Shown piece after piece: positions 45,667 through 63,277 of a stretch of DNA of 64,000 nt. Position 1 is the stretch's first letter; each line of letters opens with the position of its first letter. The position numbers and the translations under genes were made by a program. A model generated the notes under the pieces. It saw nothing but the letters and a program-made list of their open reading frames with translations, was not told the DNA's origin and made no database searches. Origin of the DNA: an uncultured Bacteroides sp. (GTDB taxonomy: Bacteria; Bacteroidota; Bacteroidia; Bacteroidales; UBA932); contig CAMCGB010000007.1 of NCBI GenBank assembly GCA_945874355.1, positions 60,431 through 124,430 on the forward strand, given 5' to 3'.

Positions 45667-48639
45667 TTATTTGAATTCAATTACAAGGCTGCTCTTGCCG
45701 CCTACCACCATTCCTTCGGGATTGAAGGCCTCTCCTGTGAGCACATTGCGGCCCTCACCCTTGAGAACTCCTGTCATCTCGGCGTAGCTCTCCCAAGGCA
45801 GGACTCTCTCGCCGGGGTTATTGTTCACATACACGAATACGGCCTCATTATCGGTGTAGCGGAAGTAGGCGTAGGTGTTGTCGCGGCTGATGAAATGCCT
45901 GGTCTGGCCCTGCTGAACGGCCTCGGAAGTCTTTCTCCACTGGAAAAGGGTGCTGAAATAGTCGTGCAGGTCCTTCTGCGTGGGGTTGCTCTCCCAGTCC
46001 AGGGGCAGCTCGACCCTGAGCCCGCCGTGGCCCTGCGAGAGGTCGCGCGAAGTGACCATCAGCTCGTCGCCCGCGAAAATCTGCGGGAAGCCCCTCAGCG
46101 TGGCCATAAGGGTATAGACCAGCTTCATCTTTGCGGGATCCTTCTGGGCGATGTCTCCGATACGGGCTGTGTCGTGGTTGCCGGGGAATATCATCATATT
46201 CTGCACATCGGTGAAATACAGGTCGTTGGCTATCGAATCATAGACCTTGGTGATGCCCTCGTCCCAGCTCTCGGAGCTTGAGTTGATGCTGGCGGCGATG
46301 GCGCTCATCAGGCAGAAATCCATAATTGAAGGCAGGTTCGAGTTGAAGCCGTCCTTGTTGGGGTTATCCTTCTGCCAGTAAGCCACCTGGGGCACATTGT
46401 TGCTCCAAACCTCGCCTACGATGTTCATATTGGGGTACTCGTCGGTCACGGCCTTGCACCACTGCGACATAGGGTACTTTTCGTTATAGGGGTAGGTGTC
46501 CACCCTCAGGCCGTCCAGTCCGGCCCATTCAATCCACCATACAGCCCACTGCTTGAAATACTGGAGCAGATAGGGGTTGTCCAGATTCATATCGGGCATA
46601 GAGGTGTCGAACCATCCGCCGAGCATATTCTCGCGGTCAATCTCTGCGCAGTAGGGGTCGTTCTGGGCTGAGAATGCGCAGTTGGAGTGGGTGTATGAGG
46701 GCCACTGGTGAATCCAGTCCTGGAAAGGCAGGTCCTCCATCCACCAGTGGGCTGTGCCGCAGTGGTTGGTCACGATGTCCATAATCATCTTTATGCCTCT
46801 TTCGTGGGCCTGCTGCACCAGCTCGCGGTACTTGTAGTTGCTGCCGAAACGGGGGTCGATCTTATAGTAGTTCGAGCAGGCGTAGCCGTGATAAGAAGAA
46901 TTAGGCTCGTTATCCTCCAGCAGAGGGGTGTTCCAGATGGCGGTCATTCCGAGGCCGGCGATATAGTCCAGCTGGTCCTCAATGCCCTGGATGTCTCCTC
47001 CGTGGCGTCCGAAGAAGGCCTGATAGTCGGGCTTTTCGATGGTGCAGGGCGAAGCGTCATTAGTCTTGTCTCCGTTCACAAAACGGTCAGGCATAATCAG
47101 ATACACAGCATCTGCAGTTGAGAAACTCTGTCTCTGCGCGCTTCCTTCCTCCCTGTCGTAAATACGGTAGGGGACGCTGAAGCTCTGCTCTGCTTTGGTG
47201 AAACGCAGCCTCACTTCGCCGCTCTTTGCAGAAGGCGCGAAAGCGAGGTCCACAAACAGGTAGTTGGGGCTCTCGGCCTTGTGTATCTGCTTGATGCTCA
47301 CTCCGTTTCCTCCTTCGAGCGAGAGTTCCCACTCTGAGATGCCCTCGCCCTGGATGAGAAGCTGCAGAGGGGTGTTCATTCCCACCCACCAGCAGGGAGG
47401 CTCGACTCTTGAGACAAGGTCGGAAGAGCTGCTTATCTCCCAGCTCCAGGGAGCCTTGAGGCATACGCTTACCTTTACCCAATCGTCCCCGAGACTTCTT
47501 TTGAAGCAGAACTCGCTGTCTGTGCAGCTCAAAAGCTCAAAAGTGCTTTCGCAAGAGCGCAGCGCAGGATGGTCCCGCCTCAGGGAGTTGAGGTAACGGT
47601 AGAATTCGGTATAGGAATTAGTTTTATAGCTTTCAAGCGGGTCTTTCTCGAAGAAGGCGAAGCGTTTGTCGTTGCCCACTTCCTGTCCGGTGTAGATAAG
47701 GGGCTGGCTCTGGGGAAGGGTCCAGCACAGAACGGTCATAACCTGCCAGGCGTCCCCCATACGCTCGAACTCGGTTCCTGCCCAGGAGTTCTCGTCGTGG
47801 TTGGAGGTGAAGCACAGCCTGTGGGCCGATGCGGGGTACTCCCTGCTGTTCCACTCCAGATATGAAGCCAGGGAGTCGGCGCAGGCCTTGCCCTGGGCTA
47901 TGTCGTTAAGCAGATGGTGCAGCTTCCAGGAGTAGGAAGTGTCAAATCCGGCCTCGTGCAGCCAGGGGGTCTCTCCTTCGGCAAGGAAGTACAGAGGGCC
48001 GTATTCCTTGCGCAGAGCGGGGATGGTCTCCACCCAGAAGTCCTGGGGTACGATGTAGGCCATATCGCAGCGGAAGCCGTCCACTCCGCGGTCGAGCCAG
48101 AAGCGCATACACTCCTGCATCTGTGCGCGCATATCGGCGTTGTCGTAGTTCAGCTTTGCGATGTCCGTCCAGTCATATTCCACAACGGTATTACCGTTCT
48201 CGTCGCGCACGTACCAGTCCGCATCCTTTTCGCTTACCCAGGGATGGTCGGGCGAAGTGTGGTTGGCAACCCAGTCCAGGATAACCTTTAGGCCCAGGGA
48301 GTGGGCTTTTTCAACGAAAGCATCGAAGTCCTCAAGGGTGCCGAACTCGGGGTTGACGTCGCAGTAGTCCTTGATGGCGTAATATGAGCCCAGGGAGCCT
48401 TTTCGGCCCTTTTCTCCTATGGGGTAGATGGGCATAAGCCACACCACATCCACACCTGCGTCCTTGAGGGTGGGGAGGAGCTCTCCGGCAGCCTCAAGGG
48501 TGCCTTCCGGGGTCATCTGACGTGTGTTGAGTTCATATACTACGCCTTCGCAAACGCAGTCGGCGCTAGTCTTGGTAGTCTGGGTGCCGCAGGAAAGGGT
48601 GAGAGCGGCCAGAGCTAAGAACAGGAAAAACCGTTTCAT
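45667..48639 (-). CDS. Tandem GH13-GH13 lipoprotein: alpha-amylase-like domain fused to SusA/neopullulanase-like domain
   Basis: Lipobox LTLSC. Domain 1: GVDGFRCDMAY, YFLAEGET, FTSNHDENSW. Linker with cyclomaltodextrinase-N-like beta domain. Domain 2: YLIMPDRFVNGD, GLDGLRVDTYPY, NIVGEVWSN, FPGNHDTARI. Confidence 0.9.
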   Translation of the reverse strand: MKRFFLFLALAALTLSCGTQTTKTSADCVCEGVVYELNTRQMTPEGTLEAAGELLPTLKDAGVDVVWLMPIYPIGEKGRKGSLGSYYAIKDYCDVNPEFGTLEDFDAFVEKAHSLGLKVILDWVANHTSPDHPWVSEKDADWYVRDENGNTVVEYDWTDIAKLNYDNADMRAQMQECMRFWLDRGVDGFRCDMAYIVPQDFWVETIPALRKEYGPLYFLAEGETPWLHEAGFDTSYSWKLHHLLNDIAQGKACADSLASYLEWNSREYPASAHRLCFTSNHDENSWAGTEFERMGDAWQVMTVLCWTLPQSQPLIYTGQEVGNDKRFAFFEKDPLESYKTNSYTEFYRYLNSLRRDHPALRSCESTFELLSCTDSEFCFKRSLGDDWVKVSVCLKAPWSWEISSSSDLVSRVEPPCWWVGMNTPLQLLIQGEGISEWELSLEGGNGVSIKQIHKAESPNYLFVDLAFAPSAKSGEVRLRFTKAEQSFSVPYRIYDREEGSAQRQSFSTADAVYLIMPDRFVNGDKTNDASPCTIEKPDYQAFFGRHGGDIQGIEDQLDYIAGLGMTAIWNTPLLEDNEPNSSYHGYACSNYYKIDPRFGSNYKYRELVQQAHERGIKMIMDIVTNHCGTAHWWMEDLPFQDWIHQWPSYTHSNCAFSAQNDPYCAEIDRENMLGGWFDTSMPDMNLDNPYLLQYFKQWAVWWIEWAGLDGLRVDTYPYNEKYPMSQWCKAVTDEYPNMNIVGEVWSNNVPQVAYWQKDNPNKDGFNSNLPSIMDFCLMSAIAASINSSSESWDEGITKVYDSIANDLYFTDVQNMMIFPGNHDTARIGDIAQKDPAKMKLVYTLMATLRGFPQIFAGDELMVTSRDLSQGHGGLRVELPLDWESNPTQKDLHDYFSTLFQWRKTSEAVQQGQTRHFISRDNTYAYFRYTDNEAVFVYVNNNPGERVLPWESYAEMTGVLKGEGRNVLTGEAFNPEGMVVGGKSSLVIEFK

Positions 48640-48640
48640 A

Positions 48641-50077
48641 TTATTTGCAGTATTTATTTATGCTTGATGTCTTGACCTGGAAGTAATTGTTGCCTCCAAG
48701 CTGCAGAAGGCGGTATTCGCCGTGATTGCCCCAGGAAGCGGGCTTGTCTTCGAGCTGGCAGTCTTCCCCCGTGTCGTTGTCGATATACTCCGAAATCAGT
48801 TTGTGCCAGTTCCTGATTCTTTCCATACTGGCGTCATAGTAGAAAAGCCTCTCCGAAGCAGAGCAGAGCTTCAGCAGCTCCTGTTTGTAGATGTCGCGGA
48901 ACTCGCTAATTTGCAATATCTTATAGATGAGAGGGTTCTTATTTGAGTCGCCCCAGTTCAGGGGGTCCTGCCTTCCGGCATCGCTCTGGGCCCCGCACTG
49001 GGCGCTGGTCCCGAGGGTGTTGTCGTAGTCGTAGGGCAGGAGATAGAACTTGTAGGAACTCTTTTCTGTGGAGTCGAAATAGATGTAGTAATTGTTGCAA
49101 TTGTTCCAGTAGTCGTCCCACATTCCGCAGGCCACATTCACGGCGTAGGTTTTCAGCAGCAGGGGCACATCGCAGTGAGCGCCGATCCAATTCTTGAAGT
49201 CATCTCCGGACTTTGAGCGCAGGTTGGTGATGAAGTCCAGCAGCTGGGCCTTTGCCCCGGCCAGGTCGTCAGTATTGGTTTTCAGCTCATAAGTATGCTC
49301 AACCCCGTCGTCAAGGTCGGCTCCTATGTCCGCTCCGGTGTCGTTCAGGGTGGCCCCGTAGCGGCACTTCCAGAGGTTGCCCGCGGTAGAGCTGAACTTG
49401 CTCTTGCGCTCCTTCAGGAAGTCGTTATCTATGGGCTCAATCATATCATAGACTCCGTAATAGGCCTCCTTGCTGTCCCCTTCGACATGAATGAACAGGC
49501 GGCAGTATGAAGCATAGGAAGCGGTCCATACCCCGGCCCTGCGGAAGAGGTCGTAGCAGTACAGCTCCCGTACGTACATAGGGTCGTCCTTAAACCATTT
49601 CAAGGCTATCTTCTTGATTCCCTTGATTTTATGTGCGTCGTCCTTTACGAACTTGCGCAGGTTCAGCTGGAAGTGGCAGTGATGCCAGTCGGTCTGGTCC
49701 TTCTTGTGCATCTGTCCGCCCGAGCCTTCGGGGCGCCTGCGGGAGGTGTTGCCTTTGAGCCTGATGCCGGCGTCGCTGATGTTGAACTCGTCCCCGCCCT
49801 TTATGAAGCGCACGTCACACTTGACCTGCTCGTCAGTATTGGGGTCGCGGTCGTATTTGCTCAGAAGAGAGTTCCATTCGCTCAGCTTGAAGCTCAGATG
49901 AATCTCTGGAAGTACCTCCAGATCATACACATACGCAGTGCCCTCTTTCTGCTCGATGTTTTCTCCTCCGCCTGTCTGAGAGTTGTCCGGAGTGTCGGGC
50001 GAAGAGCCTATCTTCTCGCAGGACAGCACAAACAAGAGGGAACAGAACACCAGAATAAGGGAAGAGAGCCGTCTCAT
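48641..50077 (-). CDS. CotH-kinase-family lipoprotein
   Basis: Lipobox FVLSC; DAGIRLKGNTSRRRP, YVRELYCYDLFRRAGVWTASYASYCRLFIH, YYGVYDMIEPIDNDFLKER, FYLLPYDYDNTLGT. Confidence 0.85.
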   Translation of the reverse strand: MRRLSSLILVFCSLLFVLSCEKIGSSPDTPDNSQTGGGENIEQKEGTAYVYDLEVLPEIHLSFKLSEWNSLLSKYDRDPNTDEQVKCDVRFIKGGDEFNISDAGIRLKGNTSRRRPEGSGGQMHKKDQTDWHHCHFQLNLRKFVKDDAHKIKGIKKIALKWFKDDPMYVRELYCYDLFRRAGVWTASYASYCRLFIHVEGDSKEAYYGVYDMIEPIDNDFLKERKSKFSSTAGNLWKCRYGATLNDTGADIGADLDDGVEHTYELKTNTDDLAGAKAQLLDFITNLRSKSGDDFKNWIGAHCDVPLLLKTYAVNVACGMWDDYWNNCNNYYIYFDSTEKSSYKFYLLPYDYDNTLGTSAQCGAQSDAGRQDPLNWGDSNKNPLIYKILQISEFRDIYKQELLKLCSASERLFYYDASMERIRNWHKLISEYIDNDTGEDCQLEDKPASWGNHGEYRLLQLGGNNYFQVKTSSINKYCK

Positions 50078-50082
50078 AAGTA

Positions 50083-52644
50083 TTATTGTCTAATGAATAT
50101 CTTCCACTCTGCGGCGCCCATCTCAAGGCTGGCTGAGCTGCCGGTATAGCTCTCCTTCGAGTCCAGATAGTTGGTCCAGGTGCCGTCTGAAGGGAAGCTG
50201 ACGCTGATGCTTGAAGCCGAAGTGCCGAAGTTTCCAACCAGCATGAAGCTCTTTCCTGAGGAAGTGATGCTGATGGTCCTTCCTGCCGCCCAGTTGGCAG
50301 AGCCTATCTTCAAAGACACGCTGGCGTCCTTGGTGAAGAATTCGGGATTGTCCTTCCTGAACTTCAGAAGGGTGCGGTAGTCGTCGTGCAGGGCCTTGCG
50401 CTCGCTCACTTCCAGATACTCCCAGTGCAGAGGCTTGCGTCCTGTCCTTCCGCCGGTCTCAATGCTCTCGTCGTAGCCCAGCTCCTGGAACTGCCAGAGC
50501 ATCTTCGGTCCGGGAACGCAGAGCAGGAAGGCGGCGCACAGAGACTCTCTCTGCATTCTGGCCTTAAGACTGCCCTTTACGGAAGCGTCCCCGTAAGTGA
50601 GTGATTTATAAGCGCTGCGCTCCTCGTCGTGGCTCTCGGAAAAGCCTACCAGTGAGCCGAAAGGCATACTAGTGCCTGTCCACAGGCCGCCGAAGTCGCT
50701 GCCCGAAGACACTCCCATTGCCGCCTGGCAGAAAGCGTAGTTGAGATTTCTCCACACCTTCATCCCGTCCTGGGCCAGAGCATTCTCCTCCTTTGTCTCG
50801 CAGAAGTGCTCGAGTATCACTACGGCATCGGGATTGACCTTTTTGATGGCCGAATTGTAGTCCTTGAGGATGTCAACCCTGCTCTGGTCGTAAGACGAAG
50901 CGTTGCTTTCGTCGCACTTGCGGTTGCTGAATCCCTTGGTAAGGTCGAAGCGGAAACCGTCCACTTTGTATTCCGTCAGAAGATACTCCAGGCTCTCCTT
51001 CACGTGGGCGCGTACAACAGCGTTCTCGTGGTTCCAGTCATGGAACACGTTGTAGGGATGGGGTGCCTCCACGTTGAAGAACGGGTTGTTGGAGGCGGTC
51101 CTGTTGGCCGAAGCGTCCCAGTACATCTTGGCGTAAGGATGGGCTCCGGTGGCCTGATTGTAAACCACATCCACCAGCACACCTATGCCTCTGGAGTGGC
51201 ACTCGTCGATGAACTGCTTGTACTTGTCAGAAAAGCCGTAGGCCTTGTCGAGGGCAAAGTATGAGCAAGGGTTATAGCCCCAGGAGTCGTTGCCGTCGAA
51301 CTCCTGGATGGGCATCAGTTCAATCGCCCCTACGCCCAGGTCGCTCAGATAGTCAAGCTTTTCAAGAGCGCCGTTCAGGTCAGAACTTGAAGAGAAATCC
51401 CTCAAGTGAAGCTCATATATTATTAGGTCATCTTGGTCTTTTATCTTGAAATCCGTGTTCTTCCACTGATACTCCTCGCCGCCGTAGCAGAATGCGCCCA
51501 CAAGCCCGCTTGTGCCCTCAGGATAGCTCCTGAGACCGGGATAGGTGGAAGAAGAGATGTATTTGTCGTTTGAAGAGTCGTACACTATGGTGGTGTACGG
51601 GTCGTGAATCTTTACAGAGCTGTCGCCCTTTCCGAGATAGTACTGGAACAGGTACTCCCTGCCTTTCTCGACAGAAGGGATGGTGTACCACCATACTCCC
51701 AGCTGCTCGTCGCGCTTCATTGCGTACTCCTTTGTGCGCTTGAAGCCGTTGAAATCGCCTATCAGATAGCACCAGTCGTGCCTTTCGCCCTTGGTGTCCT
51801 TGTCGTAAAGCACCAGGGTCACGCTGCCGTCGGCGTTGTAGTTGATGCCCTTCTTTACACCCGCAGGTGCGCTTTCCACCACCACGGGGTCGGGCTCGAA
51901 GCTGTTCTTGCTGTCATTGACCTTGATGAAAAGGTCTTCTGTCTGGGTCTTTCCGTCGGCGCTGCGTACCACAACGCCAATCTTGTTCACGGGCGTGTCG
52001 CCCGAAGCGAAGTATTCTCTTATGGTAGGTTTAAGTTCAAGCTTCCAGAGGTTTTTTTCCTCCATTTCCGTCCAGCGGCATTTGTCGATATTGGTGTTCC
52101 AATCTGCCTGGACATACATCCACTCAGTCTCCACGATTCCGATGTGGGCATAAATGGCCTGGGTATAGCCGTAGAAAGGAGTCCCCTGGGCGGCACGGTA
52201 GTAGAGTGTGCAGCTCTGGTCGGCATCCGGGGTCTCTTCGAGTGTGAACAGCCCCGTCTTGCCCGGCCCGATGACCTCGTTCACCGGCTCCTGGGAGACG
52301 TTTACCGTAACTTTAAGGCAGCCCGGAGCCGAAAACTCCAGCTTTCCGCTGCGTGCATTTGCCCCGCACTCTGTTGCGCTGATCCTCACTTCTCCTCCAG
52401 GAGCAGTTCCGCTCTCGGGCGAAATGGTGAACCAGTCGCCTTCCTTGATGACCGCCTTCCAACTTTCGGCATTGGTGGTCACGGTTATGGTTTGGCTTGA
52501 TGCTCCCTTGGCGAATACTACTTCGCGCGGCTCAATCTTCAGCTGTTTTGCGCCCTGGTTGGGGTCCTGCTCCTTGCAGGATACAGCCATAAGTCCGAGA
52601 CTTACAAGAGCGATGCTCAGAATGCGTACAAATACTTTTCTCAT
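50083..52644 (-). CDS. GH13 alpha-amylase lipoprotein with N-terminal BACON domain and E-set/CBM48-like module (SusG-like role)
   Basis: Lipobox MAVSC; BACON-like NAESWKAVIKEGDWFTISPESGTAPGGEVRISATECGANARSGKLEF; GDFNGFKRTKEYAMKRDEQLGVWWYTI; KVDGFRFDLTKGF, VVILEHFCE, FSESHDEERS. Confidence 0.9.
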   Translation of the reverse strand: MRKVFVRILSIALVSLGLMAVSCKEQDPNQGAKQLKIEPREVVFAKGASSQTITVTTNAESWKAVIKEGDWFTISPESGTAPGGEVRISATECGANARSGKLEFSAPGCLKVTVNVSQEPVNEVIGPGKTGLFTLEETPDADQSCTLYYRAAQGTPFYGYTQAIYAHIGIVETEWMYVQADWNTNIDKCRWTEMEEKNLWKLELKPTIREYFASGDTPVNKIGVVVRSADGKTQTEDLFIKVNDSKNSFEPDPVVVESAPAGVKKGINYNADGSVTLVLYDKDTKGERHDWCYLIGDFNGFKRTKEYAMKRDEQLGVWWYTIPSVEKGREYLFQYYLGKGDSSVKIHDPYTTIVYDSSNDKYISSSTYPGLRSYPEGTSGLVGAFCYGGEEYQWKNTDFKIKDQDDLIIYELHLRDFSSSSDLNGALEKLDYLSDLGVGAIELMPIQEFDGNDSWGYNPCSYFALDKAYGFSDKYKQFIDECHSRGIGVLVDVVYNQATGAHPYAKMYWDASANRTASNNPFFNVEAPHPYNVFHDWNHENAVVRAHVKESLEYLLTEYKVDGFRFDLTKGFSNRKCDESNASSYDQSRVDILKDYNSAIKKVNPDAVVILEHFCETKEENALAQDGMKVWRNLNYAFCQAAMGVSSGSDFGGLWTGTSMPFGSLVGFSESHDEERSAYKSLTYGDASVKGSLKARMQRESLCAAFLLCVPGPKMLWQFQELGYDESIETGGRTGRKPLHWEYLEVSERKALHDDYRTLLKFRKDNPEFFTKDASVSLKIGSANWAAGRTISITSSGKSFMLVGNFGTSASSISVSFPSDGTWTNYLDSKESYTGSSASLEMGAAEWKIFIRQ

Positions 52645-52708: not shown

Positions 52709-55105
52709 TTATTGAAGAGTTGCAGTTCCTGCGTTGAAGTCAAGCACAACGGTCTGGCCGGCGCCGGCATTTACTCTCTGCTGGTCGTCACCAGTTCCTC
52801 TGTACTCGATCTTTCCGTCCAGGAAGATGAACTCGCGGGTCCACCAGTCTGAAGTGGCCCTGCCTGAAGCAGCGTACATACGGAGTTCTCCGTCTGCTAC
52901 GAGCGTACACTTCAGGGTCCTGCCGTCTGCGGTGAACAGAGCATTCTCCATTCCCTCATCCCAGCCTCCGAAGCAAGAACCTATTCCGTAGATACGGGCG
53001 GGTTCGACATGGAGGATGTTGTTCTTGAGGTCGATGTGAATCATATAGATTCCGTCCTGTTCAACTGTGCAGTTGCCTCCGGCGATGGTATATCCCTCGT
53101 TGGTCTCAAGGCCGCTGAATTCCTGTCCGTTCCAAGCCTTTGCGGGGCAGAACTTGAAGCCCTTTCCGGCAGATAAGTACCTTACCGTCCAGAACTGACC
53201 GGGAGCTTTGTCTCCGCTGTTGTGAACGGGAACGAGAGAAACTACATCGCTGCTGCTCCAGTCCCAGTTACCGAACTCATCTCCTGTCATATAGAGATTG
53301 TCGGGGAATGCTACAGCATTGATCGTCACTTCTTTAGTCTCAGAGTTGAAGCTTACCTTGTAGTTGCCCTTTTCGGCTACGGTAATGTCTGCTCCGGGCT
53401 GACTGGCTACGAAAGGAGCGCCTATGGTGGGAACGAATCCTGCTTCGGGGGCGCCGTAGCAGTCCTCATCTGCCCAAGAATAGTTGTAACGGATTTTGAA
53501 TCCACCCTCGATCGATACGGTAGGGCTGGTCCATACATTTCCGTTCTGGCTCATCAGCACATCCAACTTCCAAGAGTCTCCGTTAATCATACCGATTAGA
53601 GAGAAAGCCTTAACGTGCTTTTCCACAACAAGAGTCTTGGCTGCATAGTCCAGGGTGATGTCGTACTCGCCTGTCTCAGGAATCTGGATATTGGTTCCTT
53701 TCAATTCGAACTTGACTCCCAGTTCGGGCTTGTAAACGCCATAAGGGTTGCTTGCATCGATGGTTGACTCGGAGTTGGCTTCGGGACCACCGTAATTCTC
53801 ATTGGCCCAGTCGTGGCCGGCGATGATCTTGAATTCATCTCCCTCTGCTAAACTTACTGAGCGGACTACCCAGGTGTCGCCAACCAGGTTGGAAAGGTCG
53901 TAAGCCTCGTCGGCAGCGTTCCAGCTGTTGAAGTTTCCTGCAAGGCTCCAGGCGGTAGGCTTAACGGGCTCGGGAGCTTTCTCGGGAAGACCGGGCTCCG
54001 GCTGACCGTACATAGAGGCACTTATCTGATACTCCATCTTATTGACATCGAAGTAGATACGGTATTGTCCGGCAGCGAGGGGAATATCATTTCCTCCCTT
54101 CTCGAGACCCTTTCCGTTATCACCCCAGTTGGTGTCCCAGCCTCCATTCAGACGGAACTTGAATGCAGTCGATTGCTCTGAGACAACGTCTGCATAGAAG
54201 CGGTTGTAGCCGGGGTTGTAATCCATAACTACGTCGTTGTTCCAGTCGCCGTTTAAGCCGATCAAGCCCATCTGGTTGAAACTGAATTCCTTGGTGAGGG
54301 TGAGGTTGCTCTTGTCGAAAGTGAACATATAGAACCTGTCGCTGTAGCACTTGATGTCCCCGCTACCGCCGTCGTCAATAAGGCTTATGCTGCTTGCCTC
54401 TGCTCCGGGTGCTGCAGCTTCCTTGTTGAGTCCCCAGTTTCCGTTGTTCCAGTCGGCAGCTCCGGTAAGCTTGAATCCATCGGCAGCTTTATCGCCGAAG
54501 TCAATGATACCGCTGTAGGTGTTGCCGTCCTTTGTGTAGTTGAACAGGAACTGAATGGTAGGATCTGTAAAGCCCCAGTTGCAGTAGGTTCCGATCACAT
54601 AGATATACTTGTAGGTGTCCTTGTCGGAAACGAGCATATCGTAAGGCACGAACACACCTGAAGCAATGTTGGAACTGAGTTCGGTGTTGCTGATGGCAGT
54701 GTTCTGATCGTTGGACATATCAGAGTGCAGACGGAAATAAACGGTGCACTCCTGGTCGGGAACTCCTCCCTCGTTGAGGATATAGGAGTTGAGGCTCTTC
54801 TGAGTCATTGTGGCTTTGCCGTCGCTGATGGTAGCGGCCATAACCTCGGCCTTCTCGAAGTCGGAAGTGACTGAAGCATAGAGAGTGTAGCGAACTGCGC
54901 AGCTGATTCCGTAGTCTGCCTTGCCGAAATCGATGACTATGTCTTCTCCGTCGGGAGAGAGGCTCACAGCTGCAATGTCGCTCAAAGTGGGGGCAGTCGT
55001 GTTGGCAGGGTCATAGATTGCCATGGGAGCTCTCTGGTCAACGCAGCCGGCTGCAAGAAAAGCTGCTGCGAGAAGACCCAGACCGCCTTTGATTATCTTA
55101 TTCAT
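52709..55105 (-). CDS. SusE/SusF-like multidomain starch-binding lipoprotein (798 aa)
   Basis: Lipobox LAAGC; N-terminal SusE-like Ig domain; repeated modules starting IYVIGTYCNWG, MGLIGLNGDWNN, WSLAGNFNSWN, FSLIGMINGDSW, LYMTGDEFGNW, IYGIGSCFGGW. Confidence 0.88.
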   Translation of the reverse strand: MNKIIKGGLGLLAAAFLAAGCVDQRAPMAIYDPANTTAPTLSDIAAVSLSPDGEDIVIDFGKADYGISCAVRYTLYASVTSDFEKAEVMAATISDGKATMTQKSLNSYILNEGGVPDQECTVYFRLHSDMSNDQNTAISNTELSSNIASGVFVPYDMLVSDKDTYKYIYVIGTYCNWGFTDPTIQFLFNYTKDGNTYSGIIDFGDKAADGFKLTGAADWNNGNWGLNKEAAAPGAEASSISLIDDGGSGDIKCYSDRFYMFTFDKSNLTLTKEFSFNQMGLIGLNGDWNNDVVMDYNPGYNRFYADVVSEQSTAFKFRLNGGWDTNWGDNGKGLEKGGNDIPLAAGQYRIYFDVNKMEYQISASMYGQPEPGLPEKAPEPVKPTAWSLAGNFNSWNAADEAYDLSNLVGDTWVVRSVSLAEGDEFKIIAGHDWANENYGGPEANSESTIDASNPYGVYKPELGVKFELKGTNIQIPETGEYDITLDYAAKTLVVEKHVKAFSLIGMINGDSWKLDVLMSQNGNVWTSPTVSIEGGFKIRYNYSWADEDCYGAPEAGFVPTIGAPFVASQPGADITVAEKGNYKVSFNSETKEVTINAVAFPDNLYMTGDEFGNWDWSSSDVVSLVPVHNSGDKAPGQFWTVRYLSAGKGFKFCPAKAWNGQEFSGLETNEGYTIAGGNCTVEQDGIYMIHIDLKNNILHVEPARIYGIGSCFGGWDEGMENALFTADGRTLKCTLVADGELRMYAASGRATSDWWTREFIFLDGKIEYRGTGDDQQRVNAGAGQTVVLDFNAGTATLQ

Positions 55106-55126: not shown

Positions 55127-56812
55127 TTATTTGGATGATTCATATCCGGGGTTCTGATCGAGCTTCTTGTTTACGCTCAAGTCGCTTGCCACCAGAGGAT
55201 AAATCTTGAGATGATCTGAAAGCTGGGCATTTCCGCTCTCCACGCCTCCCTTGTAAACCCAGGGGAATTCTGAAGAGGTGAACTTGCCGTAACGGATGAG
55301 GTCAACTCTGCGGTGACCCTCCCACATAAACTCGCGGGCCCTCTCTTCGAGAATCCAGTCTGTGGTGATGATTGCGGGAGTGGTGGCGGAAACGCCGGCG
55401 CGATCGCGCAGGGTCTTAATGTAACCCTTTGCAAGACCGTCAGTTACGGTGCCGTTATTCAAGCGAGCATCTGCCTCGGCGTAGTTGAGGTACATCTCGG
55501 CGAGACGGAAAACGGGCATATCGGCGGATGAAAGCTTAAAGTTGCCTGCGGCGCTCTCTTCCTGAGCGAAGGTGTCGTCGTGGTTCAGGCCGTTCCATTT
55601 CCAGCAGAGCCATCCGGTGCTCTGATCTGAAGGGCTGAATGCCTCTGCACATCCGATGTTTGTAAAGAAAGCTCTCTTGTCGGAGGTCTCGCGGTTGTAA
55701 CCGAATGCGTTATCTCCGTTATCCCACTCGACTTCCTGAAGGTCGAAATACTTCACATAGTCAGCGGGAACATGGTAGCCGGCCCAGTTCTCACCATTGA
55801 TCTTGGTTAATCCGAAGGTGGCTCCGATAGCAAGGTTGGCTTTCTCGCTCAGAGCGGCGCTGGTAAGGGTAGTGGTGCCTCCCCAGCTCTGGGTGCTGAC
55901 CCTGTCGTAGGCTATTGCAAATACGAACTCATCCTCGGCGGCTCCGCTCTCGGTATTGTCCTGACGGAACAGGTCTGAGTACGGAGTGTGGATAGAGTAA
56001 CCCATATCGATTACCTTCTTGGAAGCGATCTTGCAGTCCTGCCACCTTGCGGTTCCGGTATAAACCTCGGCATTCAGGTACATACGGCTCAGAAGGGCCC
56101 ATACGCTGCCTTTGGTAGGCCTGGGATAAGGAACGGCACCCTTCTCGGGCATTGCGCTGCTTTCGCTTGCGAGGTCAAGAAGCTCAGTCTCAAGCCAATC
56201 GAAAAGATCAGCTCTCTTGATCTGATCGGGGTTCTCTCCACCGATGTTCTCGGGCATGGGGAAGGGAGGGTTGCCGAACTCATCCATCAGCACATAGAAG
56301 AACATAGCCCTGTGGAAACGGGCCTCTGCCCTGTAGCCGGCGATGGTGGGAAGCAGGCTCTCCTGTCCGCGGGCGATAACCCTCTCGTCTTCTGTCTGGA
56401 GCAGATACTCGTTGACAAGGGCGATGGCCTTCACGGCGCGGGTGTAAACTGCAACGCAGGCATCGTTGCTCGAAGACCAGGAGTTGTTCTGGAGTTCAGA
56501 GAGATATGAGTCGCCCCAGCTACACTTGAGGGCGTCGCAGCTCATCTCGTTGAGGTTGATCCACTGTCTGAAGAACTCTGACTGACCCGCATCGGAGAAT
56601 CCCAGGTCGTTGCTTCCGGCTTCGTCCTGGCCGACAAGCATATAGTAGCCGTTGATATAGGCAAGGGCGTTGAGGTAGCTGGACTCGTTCTCGTAGGCGT
56701 TGTCGGCCGTGAAGTCGGTTTCATTCAGAGGCTTGGTGTTCAGGTCTCCAAGGCAGGAGCAGAACAACAGGGCGCTAGAAATGGCCAGTATGATTTTGTT
56801 TGCAATTTTCAT
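55127..56812 (-). CDS. susD: SusD/RagB-family nutrient-binding lipoprotein
   Basis: Lipobox FCSC; helical SusD fold motifs; C-terminal ILEERAREFMWEGHRRVDLIRYGKF. Confidence 0.94.
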   Translation of the reverse strand: MKIANKIILAISSALLFCSCLGDLNTKPLNETDFTADNAYENESSYLNALAYINGYYMLVGQDEAGSNDLGFSDAGQSEFFRQWINLNEMSCDALKCSWGDSYLSELQNNSWSSSNDACVAVYTRAVKAIALVNEYLLQTEDERVIARGQESLLPTIAGYRAEARFHRAMFFYVLMDEFGNPPFPMPENIGGENPDQIKRADLFDWLETELLDLASESSAMPEKGAVPYPRPTKGSVWALLSRMYLNAEVYTGTARWQDCKIASKKVIDMGYSIHTPYSDLFRQDNTESGAAEDEFVFAIAYDRVSTQSWGGTTTLTSAALSEKANLAIGATFGLTKINGENWAGYHVPADYVKYFDLQEVEWDNGDNAFGYNRETSDKRAFFTNIGCAEAFSPSDQSTGWLCWKWNGLNHDDTFAQEESAAGNFKLSSADMPVFRLAEMYLNYAEADARLNNGTVTDGLAKGYIKTLRDRAGVSATTPAIITTDWILEERAREFMWEGHRRVDLIRYGKFTSSEFPWVYKGGVESGNAQLSDHLKIYPLVASDLSVNKKLDQNPGYESSK

Positions 56813-56831: not shown

Positions 56832-59822
56832 TTAGAAAGTTATGTTGAGTCGGAGAGTATAAAGACGAGGACGGGGATAGATTTCAGTATCTACGCCGTC
56901 GCCTTCGGAAATCTCAGGATCGAGTCCGGAGTACTTGGTGAAGGTGCATACGTTCTGTACAGAACCTGCTACGCGGATCTTGAGATTGTTCTTCAGATCG
57001 AAGGTATATCCGAGGTTGATGTCGTCGATCTTCACGAATGAACCGTCTTCGATCCAGACGTCAGAGAACTTCTGAGCCTCGGTGTTGGCAGCGGTCCAGC
57101 CGGGCAGGAGCCAGGTAGCGGACAGGTTGCCGATATAGCCCTTAGTGTAGTCGTCGCTGTAAGAAGTGGCATAACCGCTGGCAGTCTTGTTGATGAACTC
57201 TGCTCCGAGTGAGCCGTGTCCGTTCAGACCGAAGTCCCATCTCTTGTAGCGGATCTGGGTGTTGAATCCGAAGTATCCCCAAGGGGTAGGGCTGCAGCCG
57301 GTCATATAGCGGTCGTCGGCGTTGATCTTACCGTCGTTGTTGCGGTCCACGAGGGCATTCTGTATAGGATTGCCTTCCTTGTCGTAAACCTGCTGGTACA
57401 GATAATAAGTATAAGGAGCGTAGCCGGCCTTGTGCAGGGCGGTAAATCCTACGTTGCTACCCATAGACTTACCTACCTCGACTCCCTTGAAGTCCTCGTC
57501 GCTGTTGGTAAGTTTGGTGATCTTTACGTCCTGGAAGGTGAAGTTTCCGCCGATCTCCCAGTTCCAGTCTCTTGTCTGGACGGGGATGAAGTTGGCAGAA
57601 AGCTCTATACCCTTGTTCACCATACTTCCGATGTTCGAGGTCAACTCCTTGCCGAAGTTCGATCCGAGAGGAATGGAAATCTTGTTCAGCAGATCGAAGG
57701 TGTTGCGGTAGTAAGCCTCGACGCTACCGCTGATGCGGTCGTTCAGGAAGCCGAAGTCCACACCGACGTTGTAGGTCTCGGTGGTCTCCCATTTGATGTT
57801 GGGGTTGTATGCCAGAGGCGACAGCACGTTGAAAGAACCGTTCTCTCCGCTGAGCATAGGGTACTTCATGGTGATTGAAGGGCTCTGGTAGTAGCGGGCG
57901 AGGTAAGGATAGTAGTCGTCGCCGATATCCTGCTGTCCTGTACGACCCCAACCCAGACGGAGCTTGAGGGCAGATACTGTCTCGACTTCCTCCATCCACT
58001 CTTCATTGGCGATGTTCCATGCGAAGGCGGCTGAAGGGAAGAATCCCCAGCGGTTTGCCTTGCTGAAACGGCTTGAAGCGTCACCGCGGGCGGTGAAGGT
58101 GAACAGATAGCGGGAGTCGTAGTTGTAGTTGAATCTTCCGAAGAAGGAGATCAGGTAGTACTCTCTTGAGTTGTTGGGAGCGATGTTGTACTCTTTTTCG
58201 CGGTCGTTGTTATAGTACTGCGAATTGTCGTAGCTCACGAAGTTGTGCTGCCATGAGTAACCTGCCATTGCGTTCACATTGTGCTTTCCGAATGTTTCGT
58301 TGTAGTCCAGATAAGCCTCGAGCAGGGTATTCTTGTTGAAGTTCTCGTACAGCTCATAGAGGTCAGGGGTGCTGCGCAGAGATCCGATTGAACCGGGAGT
58401 GTTGTACTTGGTTCCGTTGGTCTTTGCCATATCCAGACCAAGGTTGATGTTTGCCCTCAAAGCCTCGAATCCGTGTACCTTATAGTCGAGCTGGAGGTTA
58501 CCCACAGCGCGGTAAGTGCTGCCATAGTTGACGTAGTCGTAGGTAGAGGAGAGAGGGTTCACGCTTGCCATAGTGTTGGCGCTTCCTGCGGTCATCCAGT
58601 TCCAATAGCCGTTGCTGATCTGAGACTTGTCGATATTGCCCTCAGCGTCAGTGAAATACACGGGCTTGGTAGGATCGAAGGTAAGGGCGCTGCCCACAGG
58701 GTTGTTGGCCCAATTGGTCTTCTGATATACTCCCTTTGCGTTCAGGTTTACGCTCAGGTGGTCGTCCAGGAACTTGGGAGACATGCTGATGTCGATGTTT
58801 CCTCTCTGGTTGTCACCCACCTTGATGGTAGCCTGGTCGAGGTTGTAGCCCACGCTCACGCGGAAGGGGAGCCTGCCGCCCGAGTAGAGGCTGATATTGT
58901 GGTCGGTATTGATACCTACACGGTATACAAGGCTCTGCCAATCAGTGTTATACAGAGTTCCGTCAACTCCCAGCAGGTGAGCCGATTCAGGACGGTACTC
59001 CTGGATGTATGCGGCGAAAGTCTCTCCGTCCATCATCTTGATGGTGTCCTTGTTCTGCTTTGCGGATACGCTTCCGCTGTAGCTGACGTGCAAACCCTTG
59101 CCCTGGCCCTTCTTGGTGGTGATGATGATCACACCGTTGGATGCCCTGGAACCGTAGATGGCGGTTGCGGAAGCGTCCTTGAGCACGGAGTAGGACTCGA
59201 TGTCGTTGGGGTTGACGGTAGCCAGAGGATCACCCATTCCGGCACCACCTTCCTTGGTCACAGGCACACCGTCGATGACGATGAGAGGGTCGTTGGAAGC
59301 GGTAAGGGAAGCGGCTCCTCTGATTCGGATGGTTGAAGATGCGCCTGGCTGGCCGTTCGCGGGAGTGATGTTAAGACCGGAAACCTTTCCAAGGAGCATT
59401 GAGCTCGGGGAGGTGACGGCTCCACGGTTGACGTCTTCTGCGCGAATTGAAGTCACGGCGCCGGTCATATCACTTTTCTTCACGGTACCGTAACCGATTA
59501 CCACGCTCTCTTCGAGCATTTTGCTGTCTTCTGACAGGGTAATCGACGCAGGCATCTGTGAAGCCGTGAATGTCTGGCTGGTATATCCGATGCAGCTGAC
59601 TTCGACGACAGCGTCTTTCGAAGATACCTTGAGGCTGAAATTACCGTCCAGGTCGGTGGAGACACCATTGCTGGTGCCGGCTTCCATCACGGTGGCCCCG
59701 ATTACGGGTCCGTACTGGTCGATAATCACACCCTTTACTTCATATCCGCTTTGGGCGGACAGATTAGCGGAAACCGCCATTGAGACGATTATTCCAGCTA
59801 AAAGAGTAAGGATTTTTTTCAT
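56832..59822 (-). CDS. susC: SusC/RagA-family TonB-dependent outer-membrane transporter
   Basis: Carboxypeptidase-like domain, plug (VVIGYGTVKKSDMTGAVTSIRAEDVNRG), NDPLIVIDGVPV, DIESYSVLKDASATAIYGSRASNGVIIITTKKG. Confidence 0.97.
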   Translation of the reverse strand: MKKILTLLAGIIVSMAVSANLSAQSGYEVKGVIIDQYGPVIGATVMEAGTSNGVSTDLDGNFSLKVSSKDAVVEVSCIGYTSQTFTASQMPASITLSEDSKMLEESVVIGYGTVKKSDMTGAVTSIRAEDVNRGAVTSPSSMLLGKVSGLNITPANGQPGASSTIRIRGAASLTASNDPLIVIDGVPVTKEGGAGMGDPLATVNPNDIESYSVLKDASATAIYGSRASNGVIIITTKKGQGKGLHVSYSGSVSAKQNKDTIKMMDGETFAAYIQEYRPESAHLLGVDGTLYNTDWQSLVYRVGINTDHNISLYSGGRLPFRVSVGYNLDQATIKVGDNQRGNIDISMSPKFLDDHLSVNLNAKGVYQKTNWANNPVGSALTFDPTKPVYFTDAEGNIDKSQISNGYWNWMTAGSANTMASVNPLSSTYDYVNYGSTYRAVGNLQLDYKVHGFEALRANINLGLDMAKTNGTKYNTPGSIGSLRSTPDLYELYENFNKNTLLEAYLDYNETFGKHNVNAMAGYSWQHNFVSYDNSQYYNNDREKEYNIAPNNSREYYLISFFGRFNYNYDSRYLFTFTARGDASSRFSKANRWGFFPSAAFAWNIANEEWMEEVETVSALKLRLGWGRTGQQDIGDDYYPYLARYYQSPSITMKYPMLSGENGSFNVLSPLAYNPNIKWETTETYNVGVDFGFLNDRISGSVEAYYRNTFDLLNKISIPLGSNFGKELTSNIGSMVNKGIELSANFIPVQTRDWNWEIGGNFTFQDVKITKLTNSDEDFKGVEVGKSMGSNVGFTALHKAGYAPYTYYLYQQVYDKEGNPIQNALVDRNNDGKINADDRYMTGCSPTPWGYFGFNTQIRYKRWDFGLNGHGSLGAEFINKTASGYATSYSDDYTKGYIGNLSATWLLPGWTAANTEAQKFSDVWIEDGSFVKIDDINLGYTFDLKNNLKIRVAGSVQNVCTFTKYSGLDPEISEGDGVDTEIYPRPRLYTLRLNITF

Positions 59823-59840: not shown

Positions 59841-61193
59841 TTACTTATTTGTCGTTTTGTGTTCTTTGACAAGGCTAACGGCGGCACAGCCGCACAGAAG
59901 AAGCACCCCGGCAACTGCAAGCATAGCGGCCTGGGACTGGCCCACCAGGCGGAGAACAAAGCCTCCCACCGCGGCGGCCACAATCTGGGGCAGACAGATG
60001 GTGCAGTTGAAAAGACCGAGATAGCTGCCCATATGCTCGCCTGACAGGGAATTGGTCAGGAGAGTGAAAGGCAGCGCGAGCATTGCCGCCCAGGCTGCTC
60101 CGATAAGGAAGAACGAGCCCAGCAGCAGATATTGATTATGGATAAACAGGACTGAGATGAACCCTGCGGCCCCGATTACGAGGCTTACCACATAGGAGAG
60201 TTTGAGGGACTTGAATTTCGGGATGACCAGGGCCCAGAGTATCGAGCCTACGGCCTGGACGGCGAACAGGACTCCCACCCAGTTGCCTGCGGCCTGATAT
60301 CCCTCGCTTGCGGGGTCAGTGGTGCCCCAGCAGTTGGAGGCTACGGCGCCGTTGGTATAGGTCCACATATACATAAAGGCGGCCCAGCAGAAAAACTGCA
60401 CCAGTCCCACGGTCCAGAAAGTCTTCGGCGCGTGGACAAGAAGCTTCAGCAGCCCGGGCTCATTTTTCTTCTCTTCTTCCTGCTTTTTGAGGTCGATGCC
60501 GTGGAAGGCTGCATACTCCTTCGGAGGCATCTCCTTGACTTTCATAAAGGTATAGAGGACGCAGAGGATCAGGATGGCTGCTCCGCAGTAGAAACTCCAT
60601 ACCACAGAAGGGGGAATTACACCCTTGGGGGCAGTGTTTGCAATGCCTATCCAGGTGAAGAAGATGGGGAAGAGGTAGCCCACAAGGGAGCCGGCGTTGC
60701 AGAGCAGGCTCTGGATGGAATAAGCCTGGGCCTTCTGCTTTTCGCTGACCATATCGCCGACCATCATCTTAAAGGGCTGCATGGCCACGTTGATGGAGGT
60801 GTCGAGGAAAATCAGGGAGAAGAGGCCGAACCACATCGCTCCGTTGAGCCCGAGCATCAGGCGGGACGAGAAGTTGAGGCTTCCGGCGTTGGGAAGGAAG
60901 GCCATCACGATGACAGCCACCAGGGCTCCCACCAGAAGGTAGGGCTTGCGTCTGCCCATACGGCACCAGGTCCTGTCAGACCATTTGCCGATTAGAGGCT
61001 GGACTATCATACCCATAAGGGGCGGAAGTATCCAGAAGAAACTGAGCTGATGGGGATCGGCTCCAAGGGTTGCGAATATTCGGCTGATATTTGCGCTCTG
61101 CAGGGCGTAGGCAATCTGGACTCCGAAAAAGCCGAAGCTCAGGTTCCACATCTGCGCGAATGACAGTGGTTTTTGCTTGTTTTCCGTTTGCAT
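59841..61193 (-). CDS. MFS sugar transporter (SLC45/MalT-like)
   Basis: 12-TM profile; IWILPPLMGMIVQPLIGKWSDRTWCRMGRRKPYLLVGAL, TLLTNSLSGEHMGSYLGLFNCTICLPQI; first gene of the operon. Confidence 0.9.
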   Translation of the reverse strand: MQTENKQKPLSFAQMWNLSFGFFGVQIAYALQSANISRIFATLGADPHQLSFFWILPPLMGMIVQPLIGKWSDRTWCRMGRRKPYLLVGALVAVIVMAFLPNAGSLNFSSRLMLGLNGAMWFGLFSLIFLDTSINVAMQPFKMMVGDMVSEKQKAQAYSIQSLLCNAGSLVGYLFPIFFTWIGIANTAPKGVIPPSVVWSFYCGAAILILCVLYTFMKVKEMPPKEYAAFHGIDLKKQEEEKKNEPGLLKLLVHAPKTFWTVGLVQFFCWAAFMYMWTYTNGAVASNCWGTTDPASEGYQAAGNWVGVLFAVQAVGSILWALVIPKFKSLKLSYVVSLVIGAAGFISVLFIHNQYLLLGSFFLIGAAWAAMLALPFTLLTNSLSGEHMGSYLGLFNCTICLPQIVAAAVGGFVLRLVGQSQAAMLAVAGVLLLCGCAAVSLVKEHKTTNK

Positions 61194-61219
61194 TTTGTGT
61201 TATATACTTATGTGCATCA

Positions 61220-61228
61220 GCAAATTAA
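61220..61228 (-). promoter_or_regulatory. Weak -7-like element for the Sus operon (minus-strand TTAATTTGC)
   Basis: One mismatch to TAnnTTTG; 27 nt upstream of the MFS ATG. Confidence 0.35.
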
Positions 61229-61261
61229 GCCATTGTTACATATTTATAAAACGGAGTTCGG

Positions 61262-61291
61262 ATGAATGGTTGATTTTTTAGGATGAACGGT
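61262..61291 (-). promoter_or_regulatory. Pair of LytTR-type operator direct repeats in the divergent promoter region
   Basis: Plus strand ATGAATGGT (61262-61270) and ATGAACGGT (61283-61291); reverse complements ACCATTCAT and ACCGTTCAT; 12-bp gap, 21-bp period. Confidence 0.65.
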
Positions 61292-61331
61292 TGGATTTTG
61301 AAGAAATATTATTATATTCACATTGGATTTT

Positions 61332-62477
61332 ATGAATATTTCAAAAAATAGTTGGATAATCCACGGGTTTGCCCTGATGCACGCCGCTGTCTCCCTGGCC
61401 TGTAAGGCTGCGGGGATTGCGGATGATTTGATGCTGACCCTGCTGTCGATGGTCCTGGTTGTCATTCTATGCCTCAGGCTCAAAACCGGCGAACTGTTTA
61501 TGTATCTGTCGGCAGTACTGGTCAATATCATAGGTTTTGCTCTCGGAATGGGCTTTGCCTCCCTGTTCTCCCTCCTGCCGTTAAGACCTCTTTCCGTCCA
61601 TCCTCTTTCCACCTTCCTCTGTACGGAAATAATCGGCTGGATTACCGTTTTAGCCGCCGGCGTCTATAACCGCCACCATACCGGCCGTCAGACGGGAAGC
61701 CTTTCGCCCAAGAGCCTGCGCTGGCTGCTTGTCGCCTTCGTCACCATTATAATATGCCGCCTGTCCATCATCCTTCTCACATCTGAAGGTTCACTCCCTC
61801 GCAGCTTTTTCATAGAGATTATTCTGGATTACACTTTCAGCTGTCTTGTTCTCGTGGGCATAGCGGAGATTGCAATCAAGGCCAGAATCCAAAGCGAGAA
61901 GGCCACCCAGGAGTCCAATCTGTCGCGCTATCGCTACCTTATGCTCAAGCAGCAGGTCAATCCGCACTTTTTGTTCAATTCGCTGAATGTGCTTGATTGT
62001 CTGATACTTGACAATTCCACTGAGCAGGCTAGCGAGTACACCCACCGGCTCGCAGAGATATATCGCTATATGCTCCGTTACGAAGGCGAGAGCCTGGTAC
62101 ACTTGCGGGATGAACTCTCTCTTGTGGAAGATTATGTTAGCCTTCTGAAGGTGCGCTTTACCGAAGGGTTGGAGGTCAACATAGACATCCCGGAAGAGAA
62201 GATGAGCTGCAGCATTGTACCCTGCGCGCTTCAGCTGCTGATAGAGAACGCCACCAAGCACAATATGGTCAGCGCCGCCTCTCCCCTCAAGATTGATGTG
62301 TATATCAAGGACAATAACATTATAGTAACCAATAATATCCAGCCCCGACTTTCGGAAACCGGCTCTACAGGCTTGGGCCTCAAGTATTTGCGTCAGCAGT
62401 ATGCGGATTTGGGAGGCAGCCCGATACAGGCCGGTTCCGAAGGAGGGTGTTACACTGTAATTCTGCCACTCTTATGA
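61332..62477 (+). CDS. LytS/YehU-type sensor histidine kinase (His_kinase family, membrane)
   Basis: Multiple N-terminal TM helices; LKQQVNPHFLFNSLNVLDCLI phosphoacceptor box; VPCALQLLIENATKHNMVS N-box; TGLGLKYLRQQYADL. Confidence 0.92.
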   Translation: MNISKNSWIIHGFALMHAAVSLACKAAGIADDLMLTLLSMVLVVILCLRLKTGELFMYLSAVLVNIIGFALGMGFASLFSLLPLRPLSVHPLSTFLCTEIIGWITVLAAGVYNRHHTGRQTGSLSPKSLRWLLVAFVTIIICRLSIILLTSEGSLPRSFFIEIILDYTFSCLVLVGIAEIAIKARIQSEKATQESNLSRYRYLMLKQQVNPHFLFNSLNVLDCLILDNSTEQASEYTHRLAEIYRYMLRYEGESLVHLRDELSLVEDYVSLLKVRFTEGLEVNIDIPEEKMSCSIVPCALQLLIENATKHNMVSAASPLKIDVYIKDNNIIVTNNIQPRLSETGSTGLGLKYLRQQYADLGGSPIQAGSEGGCYTVILPLL

Positions 62478-63277
62478 TGAAAGCGCTGATTGTTGAGGAT
62501 GAGTCTATGGCCAGAATGAGGTTGGTCAAGATTCTGGAAGCCTCGTTTCCCAATGTGGAGGTGGTAGCCCAGACCGATTCCATTACCGGGACTTTGGATT
62601 ATCTGCGTCGCAGCGGTGATCCTGACATAATATTTATGGACGTGGAACTCTCGGACGGGGATTGTTTCGAGGTCTTCCGTCAGAGGGACGTGCGTTCTAA
62701 AGTGATAATGACCACGGCATACGATTCCTATGCCCTCAAGGCTTTTGAGGCCGGCAGTATAGACTATCTTCTTAAGCCTGTGAGTGTGAGCGCTTTGCAG
62801 AGGGCTTTGGGGCGCTGTGAGACTGCTGTTGCGGCTGCTGGTTCTGCTGTTGGTTCTGCTGACGGTGGTTCTGCCGGTTCTGCTGCTGAAAATAGCACCG
62901 ATGCTGGCCGCATTATGGCTTCGGTGAGCGGCGCGAAGAAGTGGAAGAAGCGTATGCTCGTCAGGGTGGGGGAGCAGTATGTCCCGCTGGAGCTCGCTTC
63001 GATTGCCTGCTTCCTGTCTGAAGACAAGTGCAATTATGTTTATATGACCTCGGGAGGGCGTTATCTGCTTGACCTGACGATGGATAAGATTTGCGAGGGA
63101 CTGGACCCTGAGTCGTTTTTCCGCGTCTCCAGGGGCTGTATCGTGCGTCGGGAGGCGGTGAAGACTGTCCTGCGTCATCTGAACGGCAGGTTGAAGCTCG
63201 AGCTGAGTGTGCGCACTCCGGAAGAGCTGTTTGTGTCGCGCTCCAGGGTTGACGATTTTCTCTCCTGGTTGGAATAG
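62474..63277 (+). CDS. LytTR-family response regulator
   Basis: REC domain MKALIVEDESMARMRL..DIIFMDVELSDGDCFEVF..TTAYDSYALKAFEAGSIDYLLKPVS; LytTR domain VPLELASIACFLSEDKCNYVYMTSGGRYLLDLTMDKICEGLDPESFFRVSRGCIV; ATGA overlap with kinase. Confidence 0.93.
   Translation: MMKALIVEDESMARMRLVKILEASFPNVEVVAQTDSITGTLDYLRRSGDPDIIFMDVELSDGDCFEVFRQRDVRSKVIMTTAYDSYALKAFEAGSIDYLLKPVSVSALQRALGRCETAVAAAGSAVGSADGGSAGSAAENSTDAGRIMASVSGAKKWKKRMLVRVGEQYVPLELASIACFLSEDKCNYVYMTSGGRYLLDLTMDKICEGLDPESFFRVSRGCIVRREAVKTVLRHLNGRLKLELSVRTPEELFVSRSRVDDFLSWLE

Follow-up and report, generated by a model that had tools for sequence, protein, structure and literature searches.

PUL biology took starch use in gut and rumen Bacteroidota as its founding model, and the control of the starch-use genes has been described in terms of SusR, HTCS regulators and ECF sigma factors. 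LytTR DNA-binding domains recognize a consensus of approximately [TA][AC][CA]GTTN[AG][TG], present as two direct repeats about 12-13 bp apart. In the LytTR regulatory systems described to date, 9-bp repeats are separated by a 12-bp spacer and lie mostly 10 bp upstream of the -35 element, or 11 bp in the Bacteroides examples (PMC6193735). YpdB of E. coli has one target only, the MFS gene yhjX, where it binds cooperatively to GGCATTTCAT repeats with a 21-bp period (PMC4847170).

Here, we analysed a stretch of 64,000 nucleotides (the window, by which we mean the whole of this stretch), in which a preliminary description had noted LytTR-type repeats between an MFS/Sus operon and a kinase-regulator pair. 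On the sequence evidence presented below, these repeats are very probably the operator of a dedicated LytTR two-component switch that activates the MFS/Sus starch operon. The parts of such a switch are already known from operators of the YpdB and AgrA type; what would be new is the control of a Bacteroidota starch PUL by a LytTR two-component system, an arrangement that we did not find in the open-access literature searched.

Gene content on the two sides of the intergenic region

The minus-strand operon begins with a gene for an MFS sugar transporter (59841-61193; Pfam MFS_1/MFS_2, with a weak match to the TIGR01301 sucrose/proton symporter). It is followed by genes for a SusC-like TonB-dependent transporter (56832-59822; TIGR04056, 774 bits), a SusD-like starch-binding lipoprotein (55127-56812; SusD_RagB, with the best NCBIfam match, NF033071 SusD, under its cut-off), a SusE/SusF-like outer-membrane protein (52709-55105; PF16411, PF14292), a GH13 alpha-amylase-type enzyme with CBM48 and BACON (50083-52644), a CotH-kinase-like lipoprotein inside the starch operon (48641-50077; PF08757), a fused GH13 enzyme of 990 aa (45667-48639) with an hDGE-amylase-like N half and a cyclomaltodextrinase-type C half, and a GH97 alpha-glucosidase-type enzyme of the SusB family (43474-45660; PF10566, PF14508, PF14509). 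From MFS through GH97, the gaps between genes are short. A Sus-like starch PUL is recognized by a SusC/SusD pair together with GH13 or GH97 enzymes, and the presence of all of these here, with the SusE/F-like protein and the cyclomaltodextrinase-type GH13, agrees with the earlier assignment of the operon to alpha-glucan. MFS-SusC-SusD and GH13-related matches were also found in the stretches from all eight relatives (8/8), and GH97 in four of them (4/8). In L219, L223 and L224, the two halves of the window's fused GH13 match separate stretches, as if they were separate genes.

On the plus strand, a gene for a membrane histidine kinase (61332-62477; PF06580, His_kinase) precedes one for a response regulator with a receiver and a LytTR domain (62477-63277; PF00072 and PF04397, above cut-off), and the regulator start overlaps the kinase stop. 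The kinase has six predicted N-terminal membrane helices and an invariant histidine, H212, in QVNPHFLFNSLN, and it is predicted to have no periplasmic domain. It had been called LytS-like, and the kinase part of that label holds (PF06580); because Pfam found neither the LytS 5TM sensor nor another known sensor domain in the N-terminal half, the membrane sensor is a different one, and we do not identify the protein as a LytS proper. An AlphaFold model of the kinase (mean pLDDT 82, pTM 0.49) had kinase domains as its top PDB matches, the best being that of GanS, and these leave the membrane half uninformed. In the regulator, a low-complexity Ala/Gly/Ser linker, coded by GGTTCTGCTG-like repeats (62820-62930), leads from the receiver to the LytTR domain.

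A pair of LytTR-type boxes in the window

The divergent intergenic region is 138 bp long (61194-61331), and extends from the MFS start at 61193 (minus strand) to the kinase ATG at 61332 (plus strand). Direct reading of the plus strand gave ATGAATGGT at 61262-61270 and ATGAACGGT at 61283-61291, which are 9-bp direct repeats with 12 bp between them and a period of 21 bp. Both the divergent placement and the position and spacing of the repeats were as previously reported. The repeat unit extends past 9 bp (GGATGAATGGTTG and GGATGAACGGTTG, 12/13 identical; the extended match, written out, is GGATGAAYGGTTG). When read on the minus strand, the distal box, ACCGTTCAT, is a full match to the LytTR consensus and the proximal box, ACCATTCAT, has one mismatch, which bears out the consensus claim of the preliminary description. 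As annotated features on the minus strand, the MFS-proximal box spans 61261-61270 (minus ACCATTCATC, plus GATGAATGGT), and the MFS-distal box, 21 bp away, spans 61282-61291 (minus ACCGTTCATC, plus GATGAACGGT). LytTR operators are characterized by two direct repeats of ~9 bp that lie ~12 bp (11-13) apart, by box content resembling the consensus, and by a position ~10 bp ahead of the target promoter's -35/-33 element, and the window has each of these features.

The window pair scored 18/18 against the family motif, a score reached by 0/5000 dinucleotide-preserving shuffles of the 138 bp, although the motif was derived from related loci and this shuffle test is not fully independent. Any 12-of-13 direct repeat at the same spacing occurred in 5/5000 dinucleotide shuffles. 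When the genome of the window was searched with 0-2 mismatches allowed, the window pair was the sole match, and a reversed control pattern in the same search gave 1+5 matches. We reject a chance repeat on the basis of uniqueness in the genome, the shuffles and conservation in the genus (see below), of which conservation is the most telling.

Distance between the boxes and the MFS/Sus promoter

The boxes, read on the minus strand, point to the MFS/Sus operon, and the layout on this strand is ACCGTTCAT-12-ACCATTCAT-10-TTTT-19-TTAATTTG. The position of the -33 element (61248-61251, minus strand) is 10 bp downstream of the proximal box and carries TTTT instead of TTTG, and the -7 element (61221-61228, minus strand), TTAATTTG, is 32 bp from the proximal box and an imperfect version of TAnnTTTG. 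A weak -7 element had been placed at 61228-61220; the imperfect element is there, and its extent is corrected to 61228-61221 on the minus strand. The distance from the proximal box to the MFS -7 element is conserved in the genus, where a perfect TAnnTTTG element follows the nearest box at 31-33 bp in 21 loci, at 42-44 bp in 10 and at 48 bp in one, the first two groups together making up 31/32 cases. These two groups differ by one helical turn, with a vector strength of ~0.9 at a period of 11 bp, and a wider -7 scan, in which ties were broken towards 32 bp, detected a further group at 53-54 bp, one more turn away. A generic sigma-70 and terminator scan gave one match, which is at chance level, and a scan of this type is uninformative for Bacteroidota. 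Many relatives (L007-L018 and others), but not the window, carry a GC-alternating stretch (TTCGCGCGCGAAA-like) between the proximal box and the -7 element.

The predicted geometry is that of the published LytTR-activator layout. Of the 32 MFS promoters in which the -7 element is perfect, only two carry the consensus -33 TTTG, and this weak -33 fits the expectation for an activator-dependent promoter. It is improbable that the regulator is instead a repressor released by a signal, since the boxes are upstream of the -33 element rather than over it, and that element is weak, as in activator-dependent promoters; the upstream position taken alone would be compatible with repression, which might act, for instance, through looping with a third box.

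Distribution of the box pair in the genus

Relatives of the kinase are present in 115/151 genomes of the genus. MFS promoters from the genus were fetched together with 200 nt of each MFS gene (100 promoters), and the informative set, from which two truncated contigs were left out, contained 99 same-genus MFS promoters, window included. Box pairs were counted when they scored at least 16 of 18. A pair at exactly 21 bp was found in 77/81 MFS promoters with a divergent kinase (window included), in contrast to only 2/18 of those lacking one. The preliminary description had proposed checking whether the boxes and their 21-bp spacing are kept in orthologous loci, and in the kinase-linked promoters they are. 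Fisher's test for the association of the pair with a divergent kinase gave 6e-13, a value not corrected for relatedness, which overstates the certainty because the sequences share ancestry. A spacing of 42 bp, corresponding to a third box, was also seen in 43 loci, while any other spacing was seen in at most 8, and the frequency of 21-bp pairs in shuffles was 0.3%. The box motif for the genus is C[CA][AGT]TTC[AG]TC. In many orthologues, the third box is nearer the kinase and in the same 21-bp register; the 138-bp region of the window has no third box.

The MFS orthologues without the LytTR system are mostly close (68-87% identical), are found in several different neighbourhoods, and lack the boxes, so the boxes are no feature of the MFS promoter as such. 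Their presence tracks the adjacent LytTR gene and not the MFS gene, and their spacing, content and layout match published operators, which upholds their identification as LytTR boxes. In L121, L134, L135, L138 and others, the MFS orthologues without the system adjoin different genes, for example one for a 4-alpha-glucanotransferase-like protein, and these differing neighbours suggest that the regulator was replaced.

The same distribution bears on the alternative that a different PUL regulator encoded elsewhere, of the HTCS/AraC type or SusR, binds the repeats, which we regard as extremely improbable. Spacing alone does not exclude an HTCS, because predicted HTCS motifs are direct repeats that can have a period of ~21 bp (16+5 or 12+9; PMC3878776). 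An HTCS is disfavoured mostly because the boxes are linked with the LytTR gene: loci with no adjacent LytTR system lack them, close MFS orthologues included, and L159, which has just a LytTR domain, has kept them (see below). In addition, the boxes agree in content with LytTR sites. For SusR motifs, the centre-to-centre distance is 67 or 77 bp (PMC3878776), and a SusR site was rejected for the window, where the repeats are 21 bp apart.

Rearranged loci and the two divergent promoters

One locus, L159 (G089:C56), has kept the box pair but has no kinase or receiver, and carries at 396-746, divergent to the MFS gene, a gene for a complete stand-alone LytTR protein of 116 aa with no receiver. Natural loss of the kinase and receiver thus left the operator and the DNA-binding domain together. 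The L159 protein can be viewed as a one-component derivative of the system. In L043 and L046, the kinase-regulator genes do not directly adjoin MFS in divergent orientation, yet both loci have the pair upstream of MFS, in the MFS orientation. Over all non-divergent loci of the family, the pair was present at exactly 21 bp in 12/17. The 5/17 rearranged loci that scored below the threshold count against control of the MFS/Sus operon by an adjacent LytTR system, as do the imperfect -7 element of the window itself and the boxes of L158, which has no adjacent LytTR gene but six LytTR genes elsewhere in its genome. In three other family genomes (L252, L253 and L254), the regulator and kinase genes have opposite orientations, and the pair upstream of MFS is weak (14-15 of 18).

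The original proposal that the boxes serve the MFS/Sus promoter is supported by their orientation, by a distance to the -7 element that changes in steps of one helical turn, and by the persistence of the pair at the MFS promoter in rearranged loci. On the kinase side, distances from box to -7 element are scattered between 1 and 56 bp, with clusters at 10 and 33 bp and a vector strength of ~0.6. This partial helical phasing in the kinase gap, and the precedent of published LytTR systems that autoactivate via such repeats in a positive feedback (PMC6193735), would fit boxes that mainly autoregulate the kinase-LytTR operon, with the Sus operon under other control. However, we consider such a role very improbable, because the boxes read towards MFS, the distance to the kinase -7 element is so variable, and the pair stays at the MFS promoter when the kinase lies elsewhere. 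Boxes for the kinase promoter only were rejected on the last two grounds. Since the kinase-side promoter is partly phased, the boxes may serve both sides, the Sus operon and the regulator's own operon, and this extension of the preferred reading is a tentative but realistic possibility. The shared 138-bp region and the third box nearer the kinase in many orthologues are consistent with it, whereas the orientation of the boxes and their tighter phasing on the MFS side speak for that side, and the window does without the third box.

Proposed mechanism and signal

Our preferred reading, a LytTR switch activating the starch operon, would operate as follows. The six-helix membrane kinase (61332-62477) would phosphorylate the LytTR response regulator (62477-63277), and two regulator molecules would then occupy the two 9-bp boxes on the same DNA face, two helical turns apart. 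The bound regulators, positioned just upstream of a weak -33/-7 promoter, would recruit RNA polymerase, and transcription of the MFS-susC-susD-susE/F-GH13-CotH-GH13-GH97 operon on the minus strand would follow. Physical binding, activation rather than repression, and transcription across the whole operon are the steps that we infer from sequence.

A kinase sensor without a periplasmic domain suggests that the signal may be a small molecule or transport flux, and not a periplasmic oligosaccharide as for SusR and HTCS. The system could represent a so far undescribed class of PUL control shared throughout the family, in which sensing by the kinase takes place within the membrane, perhaps jointly with the operon's own MFS transporter, although we regard this as rather doubtful. 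If it were true, the starch genes would be switched when maltodextrin is imported through the inner membrane, or by a central metabolite, for instance pyruvate. A large uncultured group appears to run its starch genes by a LytTR two-component system instead of the regulators described for starch use, with an operator that seems precise enough for predicting controlled genes, and the related loci provide a series of natural cases in which the regulator was lost or rearranged.

Comparison with known systems

The SusR-controlled sus operon of B. thetaiotaomicron is similar to that of the window in combining SusC/D/E-F with alpha-glucan-degrading genes for starch. In that operon, however, the regulator is one membrane protein, SusR, which senses maltose in the periplasm and whose predicted repeats are spaced by 67-77 bp (PMC3878776), whereas the window has a LytTR two-component system, 21-bp repeats and an MFS gene in first position. 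AgrC/AgrA of Staphylococcus aureus shares with the window a LytTR regulator and direct repeats upstream of divergent promoters with sub-optimal elements (PMC4227749), but functions in quorum sensing, and has separate repeat pairs for P2 and P3.

LytTR regulatory systems of the HdrRM/BrsRM type, which include Bacteroides examples, have the same 9-bp repeats, 12-bp spacer and offset of ~10 bp to the -35/-33 element (PMC6193735). These systems consist of a regulator and an inhibitory membrane protein and are autoregulatory, while the window has a histidine kinase and a receiver, and a nutrient operon as the target. The stand-alone LytTR protein of L159 is superficially closer to this type.

YpdA/YpdB of E. 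coli, for which the signal is pyruvate, differs from the window in that an entire starch PUL with the MFS gene at its head would be the target here, the promoter is of the Bacteroidota -33/-7 type, the sensor is different, and boxes in the genus vary by lineage and often occur in threes. Like the window, it pairs a LytS/LytTR-type membrane kinase with a receiver-LytTR regulator, and has two direct repeats with a 21-bp period at the promoter of an MFS transporter (PMC4847170); the box of some relatives is nearly that of YpdB (GCATTTCATC in L157). The boxes of the window most likely work by the same mechanism as those of YpdB, with two regulators on one DNA face and recruitment of polymerase.
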